Source: Brevibacterium sp. RIT 803
GTDB lineage: Bacteria > Actinomycetota > Actinomycetes > Actinomycetales > Brevibacteriaceae
NCBI RefSeq assembly: GCF_016892625.1
Contig: NZ_JAFEMW010000003.1
Span: forward strand, 434,001-498,000
Direction of reading: 5' to 3'
DNA length: 64,000 bases
Within the stretch, counting starts at the first letter, position 1; every line of letters starts with the position of its first letter. Below the pieces are notes generated by a model. It was given only the letters and a program-made list of their open reading frames with translations, ran no database searches and was not told the DNA's origin. Of this stretch, positions 9,325-19,985 are shown piece by piece. Both the position numbers and the translations under genes were made by a program.

Positions 9325-9417
9325 CGCCGAACAACCTTTCAGATCACTGTGCTGAGACTCGTCCTACCGAAGAACAAGTTGACTTCCGATCGGTGCCACT
9401 CTAGCATCCTTGTTATA

Positions 9418-9454
9418 TATCAGACGGATACTTTACGGATACACGATACTGATA
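9418..9454. promoter_or_regulatory. repeat-rich promoter region of the transporter/opine-dehydrogenase operon
   Basis: CGGATAC occurs at 9425-9431 and 9436-9442, exactly one helical turn apart, with a third copy shortened to CGATAC at 9444-9449. The block is framed by TATCAG (9418-9423) and its complement CTGATA (9449-9454). It lies 60-96 bases before the AbgT ATG and opposite the GntR gene, which makes it the best candidate operator for that regulator. Function is inferred. Confidence 0.4.
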
Positions 9455-9513
9455 TTGCGCCTGAGAGGGCCTCACACAATGAAGTGCACATCGCCTCACC
9501 TGAAAGGCATCGA

Positions 9514-11091
9514 ATGACAGCCACCACGGAAGACCACGCGGTTGCCAACCCAGACAATCGCTTCTATCGCATTCTGACTTCGATCGAGCGGGCAGGGAAC
9601 AAGCTTCCGCATCCGTTCTGGCTGTTCGTCATTCTCTGCCTGGCGCTCGGAACGACGAGTGCGATCCTGGCAGGACTCGGAGTGTCGGTGACTCTGCCCG
9701 TTGACGGAGAGACAGTCGCGGTCAACAACCTCTTCTCAATCGATGGAGCACTCTTCGCCATCGAGAACGCCCTGACGAACTACGCGACGTTCCCGCCATT
9801 GGCCATGATCGTCGTCGTGTTGCTCGGCGTCAGCGTCGCAGAGCGCAGCGGCTTGCTGACTGCTCTGCTGCGTGTGACGGTGGGCAGGCTTCCGAAAGCT
9901 TGGCTGACCTTCTCGATCGCCTTCGCCTCGATGATTGCGCACGTCATGTCGGATTCTGCGTACCTCGTGATGATCCCATTGGGTGCCCTGGCCTTCCGCG
10001 CTGCCGGACGGAGTCCGTTGCTCGGTCTCATGGTCGCCTATGCGGCCACAGCCGTCGGTTTCAATGCGAGTCCGCTCGTCACACCCTCGGACGCCATTCG
10101 CGCTTCACTGTCGATGGCGGCGTCCCACATTGTCGACAAGGACTATGTCGTCACACCGTTCGCCACCTACTTTTTCACGGCCGCGTCGTCAGTGGTGCTG
10201 TCGATCACCATCGCCGTCGTCGTCGACAAAGTGCTCAGCCGCCGTCCTGAGTTCTCACCCGAACGCCTCTCAAGTGACTTCCGAGTCTCGGACAAACTGT
10301 TCAATACGGAGTCCACCAACCATGAATCCGTCGAGCTGAGCGCTGAGGAGCGTCGGGGCCTCATCGTGTCCGCTGTCGTCTTCGTCGTCGCAGCCGTCGG
10401 GATCGCGTTGATACTCATGCCGGGCTCGCCGTTTCGCGGAGAAGGCGGAAGCATCATTCAGTCGCCCGTGCTCAAGAACATCGCCATCTTCATTTCGCTG
10501 GTCTTCGCCCTGCTCGGCATCGTGTACGGGCGGATCACACGATCGATCCCCCACCTCGGCGATGTTCCTCCGGCAATGGCCGAAGGCATCCGAACCTTGG
10601 CGCCAGTCCTCGTGCTCTTCTTCGTCGTCTCCCAGTTCCTCGCGTATTTCGAGTGGACGAACATTGGGTCGGTCATCAGCGTCAACGGTGCCGCGCTGTT
10701 CAAACAGCTCAACGCTCCGCATCTGGTTCTGCTGCTCATCATCGTTCTTGCCATCTGCGTTCTCAACATGCTGATCACCAGCGGCTCCGCGATGTGGTCG
10801 ATCCTCGCTCCCGTCGTAGTTCCGCTCGTCATGTACATCGGAATGCGGCCGGAATCGGCAATGGTCGCGTTCATGATCGGCGATTCGGTCACCAACTGCC
10901 TGACGCCGCTCAACGGCTACTTCGTCCTCGCTCTCGGCTATGTCCAGCACTTCCGTAAGGGGGCCGGAGTCGGGACCATGCTCTCCTTCACCCTGCCCCT
11001 GGCCTTGGCAGTGCTCATCGTCTGGTCCATCTTCTTCGTCATCTGGTATCTCGTCGGAATCCCCCTGGGGCCAGGGGTGCCGGTTCGATGA
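9514..11091 (+). CDS. abgT: AbgT family transporter
   Basis: The integral membrane protein has 525 residues from ATG 9514, where GAAAGG lies 8 bases upstream; the longer frame from 9349 would run through the promoter. It has about 12 hydrophobic segments and AbgT-family features: an N-terminal NKLPHPFWLF, the re-entrant stretch AHVMSDSAYLVMIPLGALAF, and the second-half GDSVTNCLTPLNGYFVLAL. AbgT proteins take up p-aminobenzoyl-glutamate or export antimetabolites in exchange for protons. Here the gene overlaps an opine-dehydrogenase-like frame and has no abgA/abgB partner, so uptake of an N-carboxyalkyl amino acid or similar conjugate is a reasonable inference. Confidence 0.88.
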   Translation: MTATTEDHAVANPDNRFYRILTSIERAGNKLPHPFWLFVILCLALGTTSAILAGLGVSVTLPVDGETVAVNNLFSIDGALFAIENALTNYATFPPLAMIVVVLLGVSVAERSGLLTALLRVTVGRLPKAWLTFSIAFASMIAHVMSDSAYLVMIPLGALAFRAAGRSPLLGLMVAYAATAVGFNASPLVTPSDAIRASLSMAASHIVDKDYVVTPFATYFFTAASSVVLSITIAVVVDKVLSRRPEFSPERLSSDFRVSDKLFNTESTNHESVELSAEERRGLIVSAVVFVVAAVGIALILMPGSPFRGEGGSIIQSPVLKNIAIFISLVFALLGIVYGRITRSIPHLGDVPPAMAEGIRTLAPVLVLFFVVSQFLAYFEWTNIGSVISVNGAALFKQLNAPHLVLLLIIVLAICVLNMLITSGSAMWSILAPVVVPLVMYIGMRPESAMVAFMIGDSVTNCLTPLNGYFVLALGYVQHFRKGAGVGTMLSFTLPLALAVLIVWSIFFVIWYLVGIPLGPGVPVR

Positions 11092-11141
11092 CGGATGCGT
11101 TCAATCGTGACAACAGAGACTCTCGAAAGGAAACAACACAA

Positions 11142-12221
11142 ATGGGAACAATCACCGTCATCGGTGCGGGCAACGTTGGCCAGACGATCGCCGGGCATAT
11201 GGCATTGCTGGGACATTCTGTGCGGATGTTCTCGCGCTGGGACAAAGAGTTTCAGCCGATCAGGGATCGAGGAGGAATCGAACTCTTCGGCGAAATCAAC
11301 GGGATCGGCATACCGGACCTGCTCACCACCGACATCGGCACAGCTACGGAGAACGCCGATGTGGTTGTGGTCGCCGCACCCGCGTTCGCACACCCGGGCC
11401 TCTCCGAGTCGCTCGCTTCCACCCTGGAACCCGATCAACTCGTCGTCTTCCAACCCACAGTTCTGGGCAGCGGTGTGGAGCTGTCCCGCCACTTCGCGCT
11501 GGCCGACCGGCAACCATGCCTGATCGCAGAGAGCGCGACCAGCTTATACACGTGCCGGCTCAAGGAGCCCGCCAAGGTCTACGTCGGCGCAGTGAAGGAC
11601 TCGATCGGCATTTCGAGCATTCCCAACAGCAGGACACAGGAGGTCATCGGTCGCCTCGTCCCCTTCTTCGGCGAACACTACAGCCCGGCAGCTGACAGTT
11701 TGGCGGTCGGCCTGAGCAATTCGAATCCGATCTATCACGTTCCGCCGGCAGTCCTGAACTTCAAGACTGTCGAAGACGCCGAACGTCTGCCACAGCACGA
11801 GCTCGTGACCCCGAGAATCGCCGAAGCCATCGATGCTCTCGATCAGGAACGACTTTCGCTGTCGACAGTGCTGCATACTCACACCACGGGATTCTGGCAG
11901 TTCCTGGACGATGCCTATGGAGTCAGCGAAGGCTCGTTCGTCGACAGAGTCGTACAGGGATACGGCCGACAGGCGTTTCCTGAACCGGACTCCCTGACAC
12001 ATCGGTACTTCACGGAAGATATCCCCTTCGGACTGGTCATCTGGAGTTCTATTGCCCGACAGATCGGTGTACCCATGCCGCTGACCGATGGCTTCATCAC
12101 CATCAGCAGCGTGCTCTGCGGGGTCGATTTCTCTGCAAACGGCCGCACTGCAGAGTCCCTCGGCCTCGCAGACGCCGAGGTGGACGACATACTCGATGTC
12201 TTCCGCAATGGAGTGCGCTGA
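11142..12221 (+). CDS. NAD(P)-dependent opine (octopine/nopaline-type) dehydrogenase family protein
   Basis: The protein has 359 residues from ATG 11142 (AAAGGA 10 bases upstream); an earlier in-frame start at 11088 would overlap the transporter by an ATGA junction. The N-terminal Rossmann fold begins VIGAGNVGQTIAGHMALLGH. The C-terminal helical domain carries the octopine-dehydrogenase features SNSNPIYHVPPAVLN (with the family His) and RYFTEDIPFGLVIW. Opine dehydrogenases reversibly join an oxoacid to an amino acid by reductive amination. Next to an AbgT-type transporter and a GntR regulator, oxidative cleavage of an imported secondary amine dicarboxylate is the simplest role; synthesis and export is the alternative. 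Confidence 0.8.
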   Translation: MGTITVIGAGNVGQTIAGHMALLGHSVRMFSRWDKEFQPIRDRGGIELFGEINGIGIPDLLTTDIGTATENADVVVVAAPAFAHPGLSESLASTLEPDQLVVFQPTVLGSGVELSRHFALADRQPCLIAESATSLYTCRLKEPAKVYVGAVKDSIGISSIPNSRTQEVIGRLVPFFGEHYSPAADSLAVGLSNSNPIYHVPPAVLNFKTVEDAERLPQHELVTPRIAEAIDALDQERLSLSTVLHTHTTGFWQFLDDAYGVSEGSFVDRVVQGYGRQAFPEPDSLTHRYFTEDIPFGLVIWSSIARQIGVPMPLTDGFITISSVLCGVDFSANGRTAESLGLADAEVDDILDVFRNGVR

Positions 12222-15033: not shown

Positions 15034-16593
15034 TCAAACTGTGCGCAATTTACTCCCGCCTGATTCCACAGCCGCAGTGAGTTCTTCGCCGACGATCAGA
15101 GAATGGATCGCCTCGATATCTTTGTGGACCGGGCGGTCTCTCTCGAGCTTCGGAACCATCGCTCGAATTGTGTCGTAAGCAGCGCCCACACCCCGTCCGA
15201 TGGGTTCAGAGGAGATGAACTCCACTGCCTGGCATGCACACAAAAACTCGATCGCAAGTACGTGCGATACGTTCTCAATGACTTCGAGGCTCTTGAGCGC
15301 AGAAGAGGTACCCATGCTCACGTGGTCCTCCTGACCCGCTGCTGAAGGAATGGAATCGACCGAGGCAGGCTGCGCCAATCGCTTGTTGTCTGAGACCACC
15401 GCAGCGGCAGTGTACTGAGGAATCATGTACCCCGAGTCGGTGCCGGGGTTCGGCGACAAGAATGGAGGAAGTCCGCTATGGTCAGCGGAAGTCAGCCGGA
15501 ATGTCCGCCGTTCCGAGATGCTGGAGAGTTCTGTGAGAGCTATCGCGAGCATGTCCAGAGCCATCGCCACAGACTCACCATGACAATTCGACGACGACAA
15601 TGACATCTCGTCCTCGGCGAAAATCAGCGGGTTATCGGTCGCGGAGTTCATTTCGTCTTCGATCACGGATTTGACGAATCGAATCATATCTTTGGCGGCA
15701 CCGTGTACTTGCGGAATTGACCTCAGGCTCAGAGCGTCCTGCACCTTGCGCTGGGATTCCGCTTCCTCCAAGCTGCTTCCCTGAAATAATGTTCGGAGGT
15801 TTTCGGCCGTCGCCCCGACGCCCTCGTGCTTCTTCACAGCGCCAATGCGGGCGTCGAATGCGGAGAGGTTCCCGCGAAGTCCCTCAACTGAAACGGCGCT
15901 TGCGATGTCTGCAGTCTTCAGCAGCGACAAGGCATCGTGCACGGCAAGGCCTCCGAGTGCGACCATGTCGCACGTGCCGTTGAGCAGGCTCAGTCCCTCT
16001 TTTGCCTGCAGGACGACCGGCCTCAGTCCCCGGCGTTTGAGCGCTTCTGCACCAGAGACCTCCGAGCCATCCACGCATGCTTCGCCTTCACCGATGAGAA
16101 CCAACGCGATATGGGCTTGATACGCCAGGTACCCGAGCGACCCCTTGCGAGGCACTCGCGGGATCACGTCTTCATTCACCATGCCAAGAAGCAAATCCAC
16201 GACTTCTTCCCTGATCCCGGAGTACCCGAGCGAAAGGTTTCGGACCATCATTGCCATCACCGCGCGCGTTTCGACCGCAGAGAGAGGGTCTCCTACTCCG
16301 CTGGCGTGGCTGCGGACAAGGCTGAGCTGCAGTTGGGCTGATTCCTCCGGGCTGATTCGGATCTTGCTGTTATCGCCGACGCCGGTCGTAATTCCATAGA
16401 CAATTGCGTCCTGGCTCAGCAGATCGTCGACGACTCGCCGGGACTCCCGAATCCCGCGACGCGCATCATCCGAAAGCCGCACCAAACGTCGATCTCGGGC
16501 GATGCGATGCAGGTCATCGACGTTGAACCCAGAGGGACTGATGGTCACATATTCTTGCGTGTTGATCTCATGCTCCTTCGCTCGAAACGACAT
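15034..16593 (-). CDS. aromatic amino acid lyase family protein lacking the MIO tripeptide; candidate ergothionase-type betaine lyase
   Basis: This 519-residue homologue of histidine ammonia-lyase keeps most of the fold's active site. It has Tyr66 in VYGITTGVG (the catalytic tyrosine of HutH) and Glu422 in AGQEDHVSMG (the residue near the imidazole in HutH). The segment that should read GSxGASGDLAPLAH is instead GSLGYLAYQAH (residues 151-161): Ala-Ser-Gly, which forms the MIO electrophile, is cleanly deleted in frame. MIO is needed to expel ammonia but not a quaternary amine. Ergothionase, which eliminates trimethylamine from ergothioneine, is to my knowledge an MIO-less member of this family. 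The gene follows a betaine-type transporter after 40 bases. The start is ATG 16593; the frame extends to 16680. Ergothioneine, hercynine or a similar betaine is the inferred substrate. Confidence 0.75.
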   Translation of the reverse strand: MSFRAKEHEINTQEYVTISPSGFNVDDLHRIARDRRLVRLSDDARRGIRESRRVVDDLLSQDAIVYGITTGVGDNSKIRISPEESAQLQLSLVRSHASGVGDPLSAVETRAVMAMMVRNLSLGYSGIREEVVDLLLGMVNEDVIPRVPRKGSLGYLAYQAHIALVLIGEGEACVDGSEVSGAEALKRRGLRPVVLQAKEGLSLLNGTCDMVALGGLAVHDALSLLKTADIASAVSVEGLRGNLSAFDARIGAVKKHEGVGATAENLRTLFQGSSLEEAESQRKVQDALSLRSIPQVHGAAKDMIRFVKSVIEDEMNSATDNPLIFAEDEMSLSSSNCHGESVAMALDMLAIALTELSSISERRTFRLTSADHSGLPPFLSPNPGTDSGYMIPQYTAAAVVSDNKRLAQPASVDSIPSAAGQEDHVSMGTSSALKSLEVIENVSHVLAIEFLCACQAVEFISSEPIGRGVGAAYDTIRAMVPKLERDRPVHKDIEAIHSLIVGEELTAAVESGGSKLRTV

Positions 16594-16633
16594 GCTTGAT
16601 GCTTTCGGTCTGACGGCAGAAACGGGAACAGGC

Positions 16634-18214
16634 TCAGTTCTCGAGTTGCGCAGCTTTAGCCGGGTCAGCCCTCGGTTCACCCATTATTTTCGTGTCCGAC
16701 CGAAGGTTTTTGACGGCAGAGAACGAGATGAGAATGATCAGGAACAAAACGGGGAATCCTGCAAGGGTTGCGGTCTGTTTGACTGCGTCGATGCCCGAAA
16801 TCTCTCCACCGGTTCCGGCCGTCACGGTGAGTATGGCGAGAACTCCGATCAGTCCGCCCCAGAAGATCTTGACCATGGCCGGCGGCTCCGGATTTTTGAG
16901 GTCGTTTCCGGTCGTTGTCAGAGACGACATCGTGGTGGTCAGTGAATCAGCCAGAGTGGTGAAGGAGATGAAGATTGCGATCAGCATCAGGATGCCGAAG
17001 AGCAGCGATAGTGGGAGTTCATCCAGGAAAGCGAACAGGGACAGTGGCACACCGCCTTCGCCGTTGATGATGTCCCAGAGTTTGCCGTCGCCCTTCCAGT
17101 CGAAGTACATCGCCGCTCCACCGAATACCCAGAACCAGAATGCTCCGAATGCCGCCGGCAACAGCATATTGACCGTGACGAACTCACGGATCGTACGCCC
17201 ATAAGAGACGCGAGCGATGAACATACCGATCAAAGGAGCATTTGCTCCCCACAGCGCCCATTCGAAAATCGGCCAATCGCGGGGCCACGATTCGCCATCC
17301 ATCGGGCTGAACCATAGATGCATCTCCGCGAAATCGGAAAGGTACTTTCCAGTTCCTTGAGTACCAATGGTCATGATGTAGGCCGTTGGGCCAACCACGA
17401 GCACGAAGACCAAAAGCAAGAGGAAGAGCCTGGTGTTCTGCTCCGCCAGGAACTTGATTCCCTTCTGCAGGCCCGTGTAGCTCGACAGAATGTAGGTGAT
17501 GGTGATGAGAATGGCAATGACAGCCCACAGGGTGGGCCCGTTGACGATGTCCGTATAGTGCGACACGCCGCTGCCGATCTGCAGGACCCCTTCACCGAGG
17601 ATCGCGGACATTGCACCCGCAATGGCGAACATGCAGACATTGTCAACGATCGTTCCAATGCCCCCGAGCGCCCGCTTTCCGAAAATCGGATACAGCGCGG
17701 AGCTGACGGCATAGGGCATCCCCTTGTTGTAATGTGCGTATCCGATTGCTATTCCGCAGATGACATACAAGGCATATGGCGCGATCGTCCACTGCATCGT
17801 CACAGCCGCGATAGAGAACGTCGCTGCCTGTTCAGATCCTGGTTCCAGCCCAAGCGCCGCCGGAGGGTTCATAAAATGGGTCAGTGGCTCGGCGGTTCCC
17901 CAGAACAGAATGCCGGTACCGATCCCGCTGGTCAGCGAGATCGCAAACCATTGCCATTTCGTCATGGTCGGTTTGGCTGAGTCACCACCGATTTTGATCT
18001 TTCCGAATTTCGAGCAGCCCAGATACAGGCAGACGAAGATCAAAACGAAAACGGTCAAGCTGAACAGCCAGCCGAAGTTGCTGAAAGCGAACCCCACCAC
18101 GGACGACTGTATGTTGTAGAACCACTGAGGGGCTGCGATACCCAGGACTGCTGTGGCGACCAGCAGGACAGCCATTGGGGCGAATACTCCCCACCGCATC
18201 TTCTTATTGTTCAT
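16634..18214 (-). CDS. BCCT family (betaine/carnitine/choline) transporter
   Basis: The protein has 526 residues with about 12 membrane segments. The BCCT signature GIGTGILFWGTAEPLTHF (from residue 97) contains the glycine-rich stretch of the substrate path. The second hallmark appears as FEWALWGANAPLIGMFIARV, followed by SYGRTIREF. The usual Trp-rich aromatic box of that helix (WAWWxxWxPF) is altered, which suggests a ligand other than glycine betaine. BCCT carriers move trimethylammonium compounds by ion symport or antiport. The start is ATG 18214 with GGAG 6 bases upstream; ATG 18217, ATG 18238 and TTG 18241 are alternatives. It is the first gene of an operon with the MIO-less lyase, which supports import of a betaine. 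Confidence 0.9.
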   Translation of the reverse strand: MNNKKMRWGVFAPMAVLLVATAVLGIAAPQWFYNIQSSVVGFAFSNFGWLFSLTVFVLIFVCLYLGCSKFGKIKIGGDSAKPTMTKWQWFAISLTSGIGTGILFWGTAEPLTHFMNPPAALGLEPGSEQAATFSIAAVTMQWTIAPYALYVICGIAIGYAHYNKGMPYAVSSALYPIFGKRALGGIGTIVDNVCMFAIAGAMSAILGEGVLQIGSGVSHYTDIVNGPTLWAVIAILITITYILSSYTGLQKGIKFLAEQNTRLFLLLLVFVLVVGPTAYIMTIGTQGTGKYLSDFAEMHLWFSPMDGESWPRDWPIFEWALWGANAPLIGMFIARVSYGRTIREFVTVNMLLPAAFGAFWFWVFGGAAMYFDWKGDGKLWDIINGEGGVPLSLFAFLDELPLSLLFGILMLIAIFISFTTLADSLTTTMSSLTTTGNDLKNPEPPAMVKIFWGGLIGVLAILTVTAGTGGEISGIDAVKQTATLAGFPVLFLIILISFSAVKNLRSDTKIMGEPRADPAKAAQLEN

Positions 18215-18241
18215 CATTGACTCCGGTGGATTGTCCATCAA

Positions 18242-18428: not shown

Positions 18429-19985
18429 TCACCACCACCGCTGGCCACTTACCCGATCTAGTCTGTAGTCGGGCCATGGAAGTTCGGTAGGCGGAACGAA
18501 GTCGGCTGGCAACAACGCCGGCATCGGATCAGCGACAGCACGCGACTCGAACTCGCTCGTCGCCTCGGCGAGGACGTCAGGCTTGGCGAGCAGGTCGAGA
18601 AAGGTTCCCGAAACTGTCTTTCCAGCGGTGAGGATCGTCGGTGCGATCGTTTCGCGCATTCCACCCAGCGCATTCATCACCCATGCGGGATACGGGCCGG
18701 CACCGGGCGCCGGGGCCAGGGCCGGGCGCGAGACGTAGAACCGCACGAGGGGTGCATAGTGGCTCATCTCCACGTAGTCGTCGCTTGTCCAGTTTCGCTG
18801 CCATGCCGGCATCTGCTCGCGCAGCAGCCGTTCGGCTTCCTGCGGTTCGATGAGGTGTTCTGTTTCTGCGAGGAACGGCGTCTCGTTCACCTCGATACCT
18901 AGCTCCTGCTGCACCTCTTGGGCGAGCGCCACCGCCTCGGAACCGTAGGTCGGCGGCCCCACCTCGGCGAGGTTGTCGTAGAGCGCCTGCGCGAGGACGC
19001 GGTTTGTCCGTCCTGGTCGACTTCTGGCCACCCAGCGGTCTTCAACGTCGCAGTGGCCCATCATCGCTGCTGCCTGAGCATTGCGATCTAGGATGGCCAG
19101 GATGTGCTCGGCCATTTCGAGGTCTGGTGTGCGCCAGGAGAACTGAATTCGTGCGACTCTCTGGGGCAAATTATCTGCTGTTGCTTGACCGTCAGTGAGG
19201 ATCGCGTCGGAGAAGCTCCAGCCGCCAGCCGCCGGCAGCATTGCGTCAAGCATCGACCTCGAAGAGGTCAGCATCTGCATCAGCGACAGATTCGCGCCCG
19301 GTGCACGAGCCGCCGAATGCGATGCGGGTATGGGCGAATGTGCGTCAGAGCTCGACAGCTGCCAGGTTTCTGGAGCATCGCAGACGAATGAATAGACCTT
19401 GCTGTAATAGGCCCCGCACTGGGTGTCCCAGCGGGCTGTATTGCACAGTGGCAGCATGTAGAAGGGATGGAAAGACACGATTGCGTCTGCATCGTCGTAA
19501 TACCCGCGCAGTCCGTGGACGACCTTCGATCCATGCATCTTCTCCGCCGGTTCTCCCGTGTAGAGAAGTGTCCCGGTGATCCCGTGGGTGGTCATCGCGT
19601 GTTTGGTCGCAAGGAGCCCGGCTAAAGTAGAGATACCCAGCACCGAATGCGGATCCGTGTGCCCGGGCGCAAAGCGCGAGAGCCCCTCGCGCGGCTCCTC
19701 CCGAGTGGTTGCAGCCTGCGAGTTGCCGGGGACTGCGTCGTATTCGGCGTAAGTGAGCAGCGTAGGTCCTGAACCGTTGGACCAGCGCGCGCTGAAGGCC
19801 GTAGGCATGCCGCCCGAACCGTCTTCGACCTCGAAGCCTTCCTCCCGCAGCCGTTGCACGTACCAGGCTTGAGAGTCGTACTCCCGCCAGGCCGGTTCCG
19901 CCAGCTCCCAGATATGGGTATGCCAATCGAGAAGTTGCTCGAGATTCTCGTCGATCCATTCCTGGGCCGTTGCCTTCGCGTTCAT
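18429..19985 (-). CDS. M20 family amidohydrolase (AbgB-like)
   Basis: This 518-residue metallo-amidohydrolase resembles AbgB, the B subunit of p-aminobenzoyl-glutamate hydrolase. It has the N-terminal helix ENLEQLLDWHTHIWELAEPA, the metal-site run TYAEYDAVPGNSQ followed by PGHTDPHSVLG, and the later GEPAEKMHGSKVV and ETEHLIEP. M20 enzymes of this class split N-acyl or peptide bonds to free an amino acid. No AbgA partner is present. The ATG at 19985 overlaps the stop of the YtcJ-type gene (ATGA), so the two are translated from one message with the MHS transporter at 21718. Confidence 0.85.
   Translation of the reverse strand: MNAKATAQEWIDENLEQLLDWHTHIWELAEPAWREYDSQAWYVQRLREEGFEVEDGSGGMPTAFSARWSNGSGPTLLTYAEYDAVPGNSQAATTREEPREGLSRFAPGHTDPHSVLGISTLAGLLATKHAMTTHGITGTLLYTGEPAEKMHGSKVVHGLRGYYDDADAIVSFHPFYMLPLCNTARWDTQCGAYYSKVYSFVCDAPETWQLSSSDAHSPIPASHSAARAPGANLSLMQMLTSSRSMLDAMLPAAGGWSFSDAILTDGQATADNLPQRVARIQFSWRTPDLEMAEHILAILDRNAQAAAMMGHCDVEDRWVARSRPGRTNRVLAQALYDNLAEVGPPTYGSEAVALAQEVQQELGIEVNETPFLAETEHLIEPQEAERLLREQMPAWQRNWTSDDYVEMSHYAPLVRFYVSRPALAPAPGAGPYPAWVMNALGGMRETIAPTILTAGKTVSGTFLDLLAKPDVLAEATSEFESRAVADPMPALLPADFVPPTELPWPDYRLDRVSGQRWW

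Follow-up and report, generated by a model that had tools for sequence, protein, structure and literature searches.

A homologue of histidine ammonia-lyase (HAL; HutH) that lacks the Ala-Ser-Gly triad from which MIO is formed raises the question of which substrate it acts upon, and of why it is encoded together with a transporter of the BCCT family. Both genes are located in a 64,000-nucleotide stretch of the genome of Brevibacterium sp. RIT 803, referred to below as the window.

A HutH-like lyase without the MIO triad

The features of the lyase gene are the following:

15034..16593, minus strand: MIO-less lyase of the HutH/PAL fold, 519 amino acids from the ATG (PF00221, 563 bits)
16396..16398, minus strand: Tyr66, equivalent of the catalytic base Tyr53 of Pseudomonas putida HutH, invariant column
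16306..16308, minus strand: His96, corresponding to HutH His83 in the substrate pocket, invariant column
16129..16143, minus strand: former MIO loop G151-S-L-G-Y155, with Leu156 directly after, from the alignment with ~120 homologues
15730..15732, minus strand: Leu288 at the position of HutH Tyr280, a leucine found in the window clade where the compared MIO enzymes have Tyr
15583..15585, minus strand: Cys337 in place of HutH Phe329, otherwise seen only in the Priestia plasmid relative
15328..15330, minus strand: Glu422, the imidazole-facing glutamate (HutH Glu414), invariant column

The open reading frame (15034-16680, minus strand) opens at a GTG at position 16680 and would encode 548 amino acids, whereas the residue numbers of the initial annotation (Tyr66 and Glu422) fit the ATG at 16593. 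Since the upstream extension contains an in-frame TGA in two Brevibacterium orthologues, the real start is this ATG or a later codon.

In the alignment with ~120 homologues, the loop reads GSLGY---LAYQAH in the window lyase, as opposed to GS(L/V)G(A/C)SGDLAPLAH in MIO enzymes. The Ala-Ser-Gly triad is thus absent, as initially noted, and the net loss amounts to exactly three residues with the frame preserved. The flanks, which had been described as intact, were slightly overstated in this respect: the following Asp is replaced by Tyr, and LAPLAH has become LAYQAH. Tyr66 and Glu422, previously pointed out as retained from HutH, are indeed invariant in an alignment of 55 sequences, as is His96, and Gln285 and Arg291 are also kept. 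The protein consequently shares with HutH (TIGR01225) the fold, the catalytic tyrosine and the glutamate that faces the imidazole, but differs from it by the missing triad and by Leu and Cys in place of Tyr280 and Phe329. It nevertheless scores 583 bits with the NCBIfam hutH equivalog model, above the cut-off of 539, although the name HutH is unreliable for a protein without MIO.

Conservation, phylogeny and predicted structure

Orthologues of the lyase were detected in four other Brevibacterium genomes (among 36 relatives in the genus), with sequence identities of 96, 95, 86 and 84%. All four carry the same MIO-less loop, and comparison with them gave dN/dS values of 0.09 to 0.12. A sequence error at position 16130, which the initial annotation had considered as a possible source of the loop, was ruled out by its identity in the four orthologues, and a degenerate gene was ruled out by a dN/dS of about 0.1. 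The MIO-less lyase is therefore a real, conserved protein under purifying selection. An equivalent GSxGY---L loop is present in dozens of other bacteria; MIO-less lyases are common, and a HutH homologue without MIO is in itself not new.

In a tree computed after removal of the loop columns, from a set of sequences that did not include the ergothionases 6S7J and that of Burkholderia sp. HME13, the window lyase fell outside the MIO enzymes, and the placement among MIO-containing lyases that had been raised against the initial reading was not observed. It grouped with a protein encoded on Priestia plasmids (support 98 and 97, starred), and both joined a large MIO-less clade of Bacillales, clostridia, Mycobacterium and others (82 and 96, weaker or starred depending on the set). 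The MIO-less group of Burkholderia and Rhizobium was placed elsewhere, and a single origin of the MIO-less lyases was not rejected (AU p 0.375). The Priestia protein is the nearest relative outside the genus, at 51% identity, and has the same loop and the same Leu288 and Cys337. When Actinomycetota were scanned with it, the other 29 matches in which the loop was read all had the MIO triad. The window clade may differ in substrate from the Bacillota clade, given Gln versus Glu after the loop and Cys337. A different loss of the triad (GSVGEA-DLAPLAD) was noted in a very divergent lyase (L063, 526-2118), which shares a Bacillus locus with a lyase of the GSVGY type.

The AlphaFold2 model of the lyase, for which the plasmid rows were left out of the input, reached a pLDDT of 91.2. 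It matched HAL and tyrosine aminomutase structures with Z scores of 46 to 48 and the ergothionase of T. denticola (6S7J) with a Z score of 45.9 and an rmsd of 2.1. The predicted fold cannot separate HAL from ergothionase function.

A divergent BCCT transporter is the constant partner

The gene next to the lyase has the following features:

16634..18214, minus strand: BCCT transporter, 526 amino acids from the ATG used (PF02028, 458.7 bits)
17225..17275, minus strand: helix-8 motif WPIFEWALWGANAPLIG, with a Glu codon at 17261-17263 and with Leu and Asn each in place of a Trp

Its open reading frame (16634-18241, minus strand) opens at position 18241, and PF02028 spans residues 19-515. The transporter followed by the lyase forms a two-gene pair in all five Brevibacterium genomes, while the outer neighbors vary; the family assignment and the two-gene pairing agree with the initial annotation. 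Among the eight BCCT proteins of the host genome, it obtained the lowest score.

The protein has the same PF02028 domain and the same length as the BCCT carriers BetP and 8zw8, a trimethylamine transporter. The transporter was aligned with BetP, the seven paralogues of the host genome and a BCCT protein from Calditrichales, with a BetP residue numbering that is in part background knowledge. Four aromatic positions are retained (the equivalents of BetP Trp189, Tyr197, Trp371 and Trp374), and four are changed (Trp194 to Tyr, Tyr370 to Glu, Trp373 to Leu and Trp377 to Asn). The aromatic box is therefore altered, as had been proposed. As judged from the sequence, a pocket with an acidic residue would be appropriate for the transport of a substrate that combines an imidazole with a trimethylammonium group.

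The Calditrichales transporter also adjoins a MIO-less lyase, and this pair unites the same parts independently. This transporter is the nearest match of the window transporter; no paralogue in the same genome comes as close, and the best match is reciprocal there. Both proteins have in common the motifs PYA(L/M)Y and W(E/D)WA(L/I)WxAxAPL as well as the altered substrate box, including the acidic helix-8 residue. The Calditrichales locus (L055) also contains a gene for an MTTB-family methyltransferase without in-frame stop (9580-10986, minus strand), which adjoins the transporter and the lyase.

Gene neighborhoods of MIO-less relatives

The genes hutU and hutI were found within 8 kb of 16 of the 48 MIO-less loci. 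All 16 hydratases fit the urocanate hydratase model, and none came near the cut-off for thiourocanate hydratase (best E value 6e-216, at most ~718 bits, versus 930). The hydratase next to a MIO-less lyase in Paenibacillus scored 930 bits with a solved urocanase, compared to at most 588 with the urocanase-family chains 7ned, 8q9v and 8q9u. No thiourocanate hydratase above the cut-off was detected among 396 Actinomycetota genomes.

Besides the MIO-less lyase, the cluster on the Priestia plasmids contains hutU, hutI and a hutG-like gene, together with genes for two MFS carriers and a regulator of its own; its hutU (991 bits, cut-off 375) and hutI (505 bits, cut-off 298) are canonical. In P. aryabhattai LAD, this cluster is located on p-LAD2, and a separate operon with hutP, a MIO-containing hutH, hutU, hutI and a hutG-like gene of the agmatinase family is located on p-LAD1. 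The presence of both clusters in one strain indicates that the MIO-less set serves a substrate other than histidine whose degradation still ends in urocanate.

MIO-less lyases of Burkholderia and Rhizobium have amine ABC transporters nearby and a gene annotated as hutC ("histidine utilization repressor") either adjoining or 3.4 kb away. The order in Burkholderia pyrrocinia is amine ABC transporter, MIO-less lyase and hutC; the same arrangement was observed in Rhizobium etli, where it lies beside a canonical hut operon. Genes resembling N-methyl amino acid oxidases occur near 18 of the 48 loci. In two Agrobacterium/Rhizobium loci (L116, 7950-12490; L119, 7914-12487), the MIO-less lyase is accompanied by a CaiB-type CoA transferase and an enoyl-CoA hydratase, and in L116 also by a 3-hydroxyacyl-CoA dehydrogenase; the acrylate product of a betaine is perhaps degraded there as a CoA ester. 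In Rhizobium daejeonense (L162, 5974-11728), the lyase adjoins cytochrome c, 2Fe-2S and molybdopterin oxidoreductase genes.

Gene content of the host

The initial annotation had noted that no urocanase-like gene lies close to the pair. In accordance, none was found in the neighborhood within the window, and the single urocanase of the host genome, which is canonical and clusters with HutH and HutF, lies 116 kb away from the pair. No hut genes were found beside the pair in Brevibacterium. The host also encodes a true HutH with Cys-Ser-Gly; this triad, rather than Ala-Ser-Gly, was seen in the true HutH proteins of Brevibacterium and relatives (L002, L007 and other Micrococcales-type loci). The models for thiourocanate hydratase and ErtD (NF058530, NF058538) returned nothing above the cut-off in the host genome. 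The host could thus finish the degradation of urocanate but has no recognizable route for thiourocanate. Furthermore, EgtD was absent from all five Brevibacterium genomes with the pair, so that hercynine would not be made by EgtD in these strains and its import makes sense.

Proposed function and alternative readings

We propose that the pair is a hercynine scavenging module, with a probability of roughly 55%. The divergent transporter would import hercynine (N-alpha-trimethyl-L-histidine), Tyr66 of the lyase would act as a base on its beta-carbon, and neutral trimethylamine would be expelled without MIO. The latter would be dispensable for this step because the nitrogen of hercynine is already quaternary. 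Urocanate, the other product, would join the chromosomal hut pathway from HutU onward. Substrate, product, transport and leaving-group chemistry are predictions from the gene and genome comparisons described above. Of the import and beta-elimination of ergothioneine or hercynine suggested initially, the combination of a MIO-less lyase with a BCCT protein stands and the chemistry has a precedent in ergothionase, and the substrate is probably narrowed to hercynine by neighborhoods and genome content.

That a trimethylammonium group can leave without MIO, as had been argued, is sound in principle: ergothionase is a trimethylamine lyase that is reported as lacking MIO in a passage of PMC13405746 citing Maurer et al. 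2019, and the principle of MIO-less elimination is therefore not new. This enzyme (6S7J from T. denticola; Burkholderia sp. HME13) has, like the window lyase, a HAL/PAL fold without MIO, and the substrate presumed for both is an imidazole amino acid betaine with a trimethylammonium group. The window lyase could accordingly be an ergothionase that converts imported ergothioneine to trimethylamine and thiourocanate, and its model superposes well on 6S7J. We consider this unlikely. Its identity to 6S7J is only 27-28%, compared to 38-41% to solved HALs, and 59 residues in 6S7J versus 57 in the window lyase between the same anchors hint, indirectly, at a different loop change. Moreover, genes for thiourocanate processing would be expected with an ergothionase, whereas none exceeded the cut-off in the host and the relatives adjoin canonical urocanases. 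As elimination from hercynine yields urocanate and that from ergothioneine yields thiourocanate, canonical hut neighbors fit hercynine better. Relatives' neighborhoods and host gene content thus favor hercynine over ergothioneine, although the adjacency of hutU and hutI could be inherited from a HutH ancestor and not be a sign of the present product. The lack of hut genes beside the Brevibacterium pair and a possible change of substrate in the window clade likewise weigh against the hercynine reading.

Next in order, and likewise improbable, is a beta-eliminating enzyme that acts on a histidine with a different N-substitution or on a betaine without an imidazole, such as dimethylhistidine, tryptophan or tyrosine betaine, or a histidine opine. 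The Agrobacterium/Rhizobium-type loci, in which genes for a CoA transferase, a 3-hydroxyacyl-CoA dehydrogenase and an enoyl-CoA hydratase occur, imply that the same scaffold is probably used for further substrates that yield acrylates, and the N-methyl amino acid oxidases point in the same direction. However, the window lyase keeps His96 and Glu422 on the imidazole side of HAL, and the nearest relative adjoins hutU, hutI and a hutG-like gene.

A MIO-independent histidine ammonia-lyase would agree with the hutH equivalog score and the hut neighbors of relatives, but we regard it as very improbable: to our knowledge, histidine deamination needs MIO in every characterized HAL, a normal MIO-containing HutH is retained by the host and by P. 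aryabhattai LAD, and a BCCT protein is an unlikely histidine carrier. Least probable of all is that the protein has lost catalysis and serves in binding or regulation as a paralogue of HutH, since the missing prosthetic group and the replaced Tyr280 are set against the low dN/dS, the invariant catalytic tyrosine, the strict pairing with the transporter and the wide occurrence of the same loop.

Beyond the host, the hercynine reading may extend to an unrecognized, widespread family of hercynine trimethylammonia-lyases (Brevibacterium, Bacillales and Mycobacterium, with a Burkholderia/Rhizobium branch), all annotated as histidine ammonia-lyase, that would feed the hut pathway via urocanate and in part use a BCCT importer with an acidic box; we hold this broader proposal tentatively, at a little short of even odds. 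No paper on a hercynine lyase was found in the open literature, subscription journals lying outside the scope of the search.

Hercynine is the precursor of ergothioneine, which is of interest in nutrition and in mycobacterial redox biology. Dedicated bacterial breakdown of hercynine, if true, would provide trimethylamine from a further source and open a new way into histidine catabolism. The hutH equivalog model passes several MIO-less proteins, and the resulting annotation therefore overstates histidine deamination; this can be corrected by a simple check of the loop sequence. The transition from a MIO enzyme to a cofactor-free enzyme also becomes testable.

Other genes of the window

A gene at 18429-19985 (minus strand) encodes a protein of 518 amino acids without a Pfam match at an E value of 0.001, which by eye resembles M20/AbgB-type hydrolases; in three of the five genomes it lies beside the pair, accompanied by genes for an amidohydrolase and an MFS protein. 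At 9349-12221 (plus strand), a gene for an AbgT-family transporter is directly followed by an octopine-dehydrogenase-like gene.
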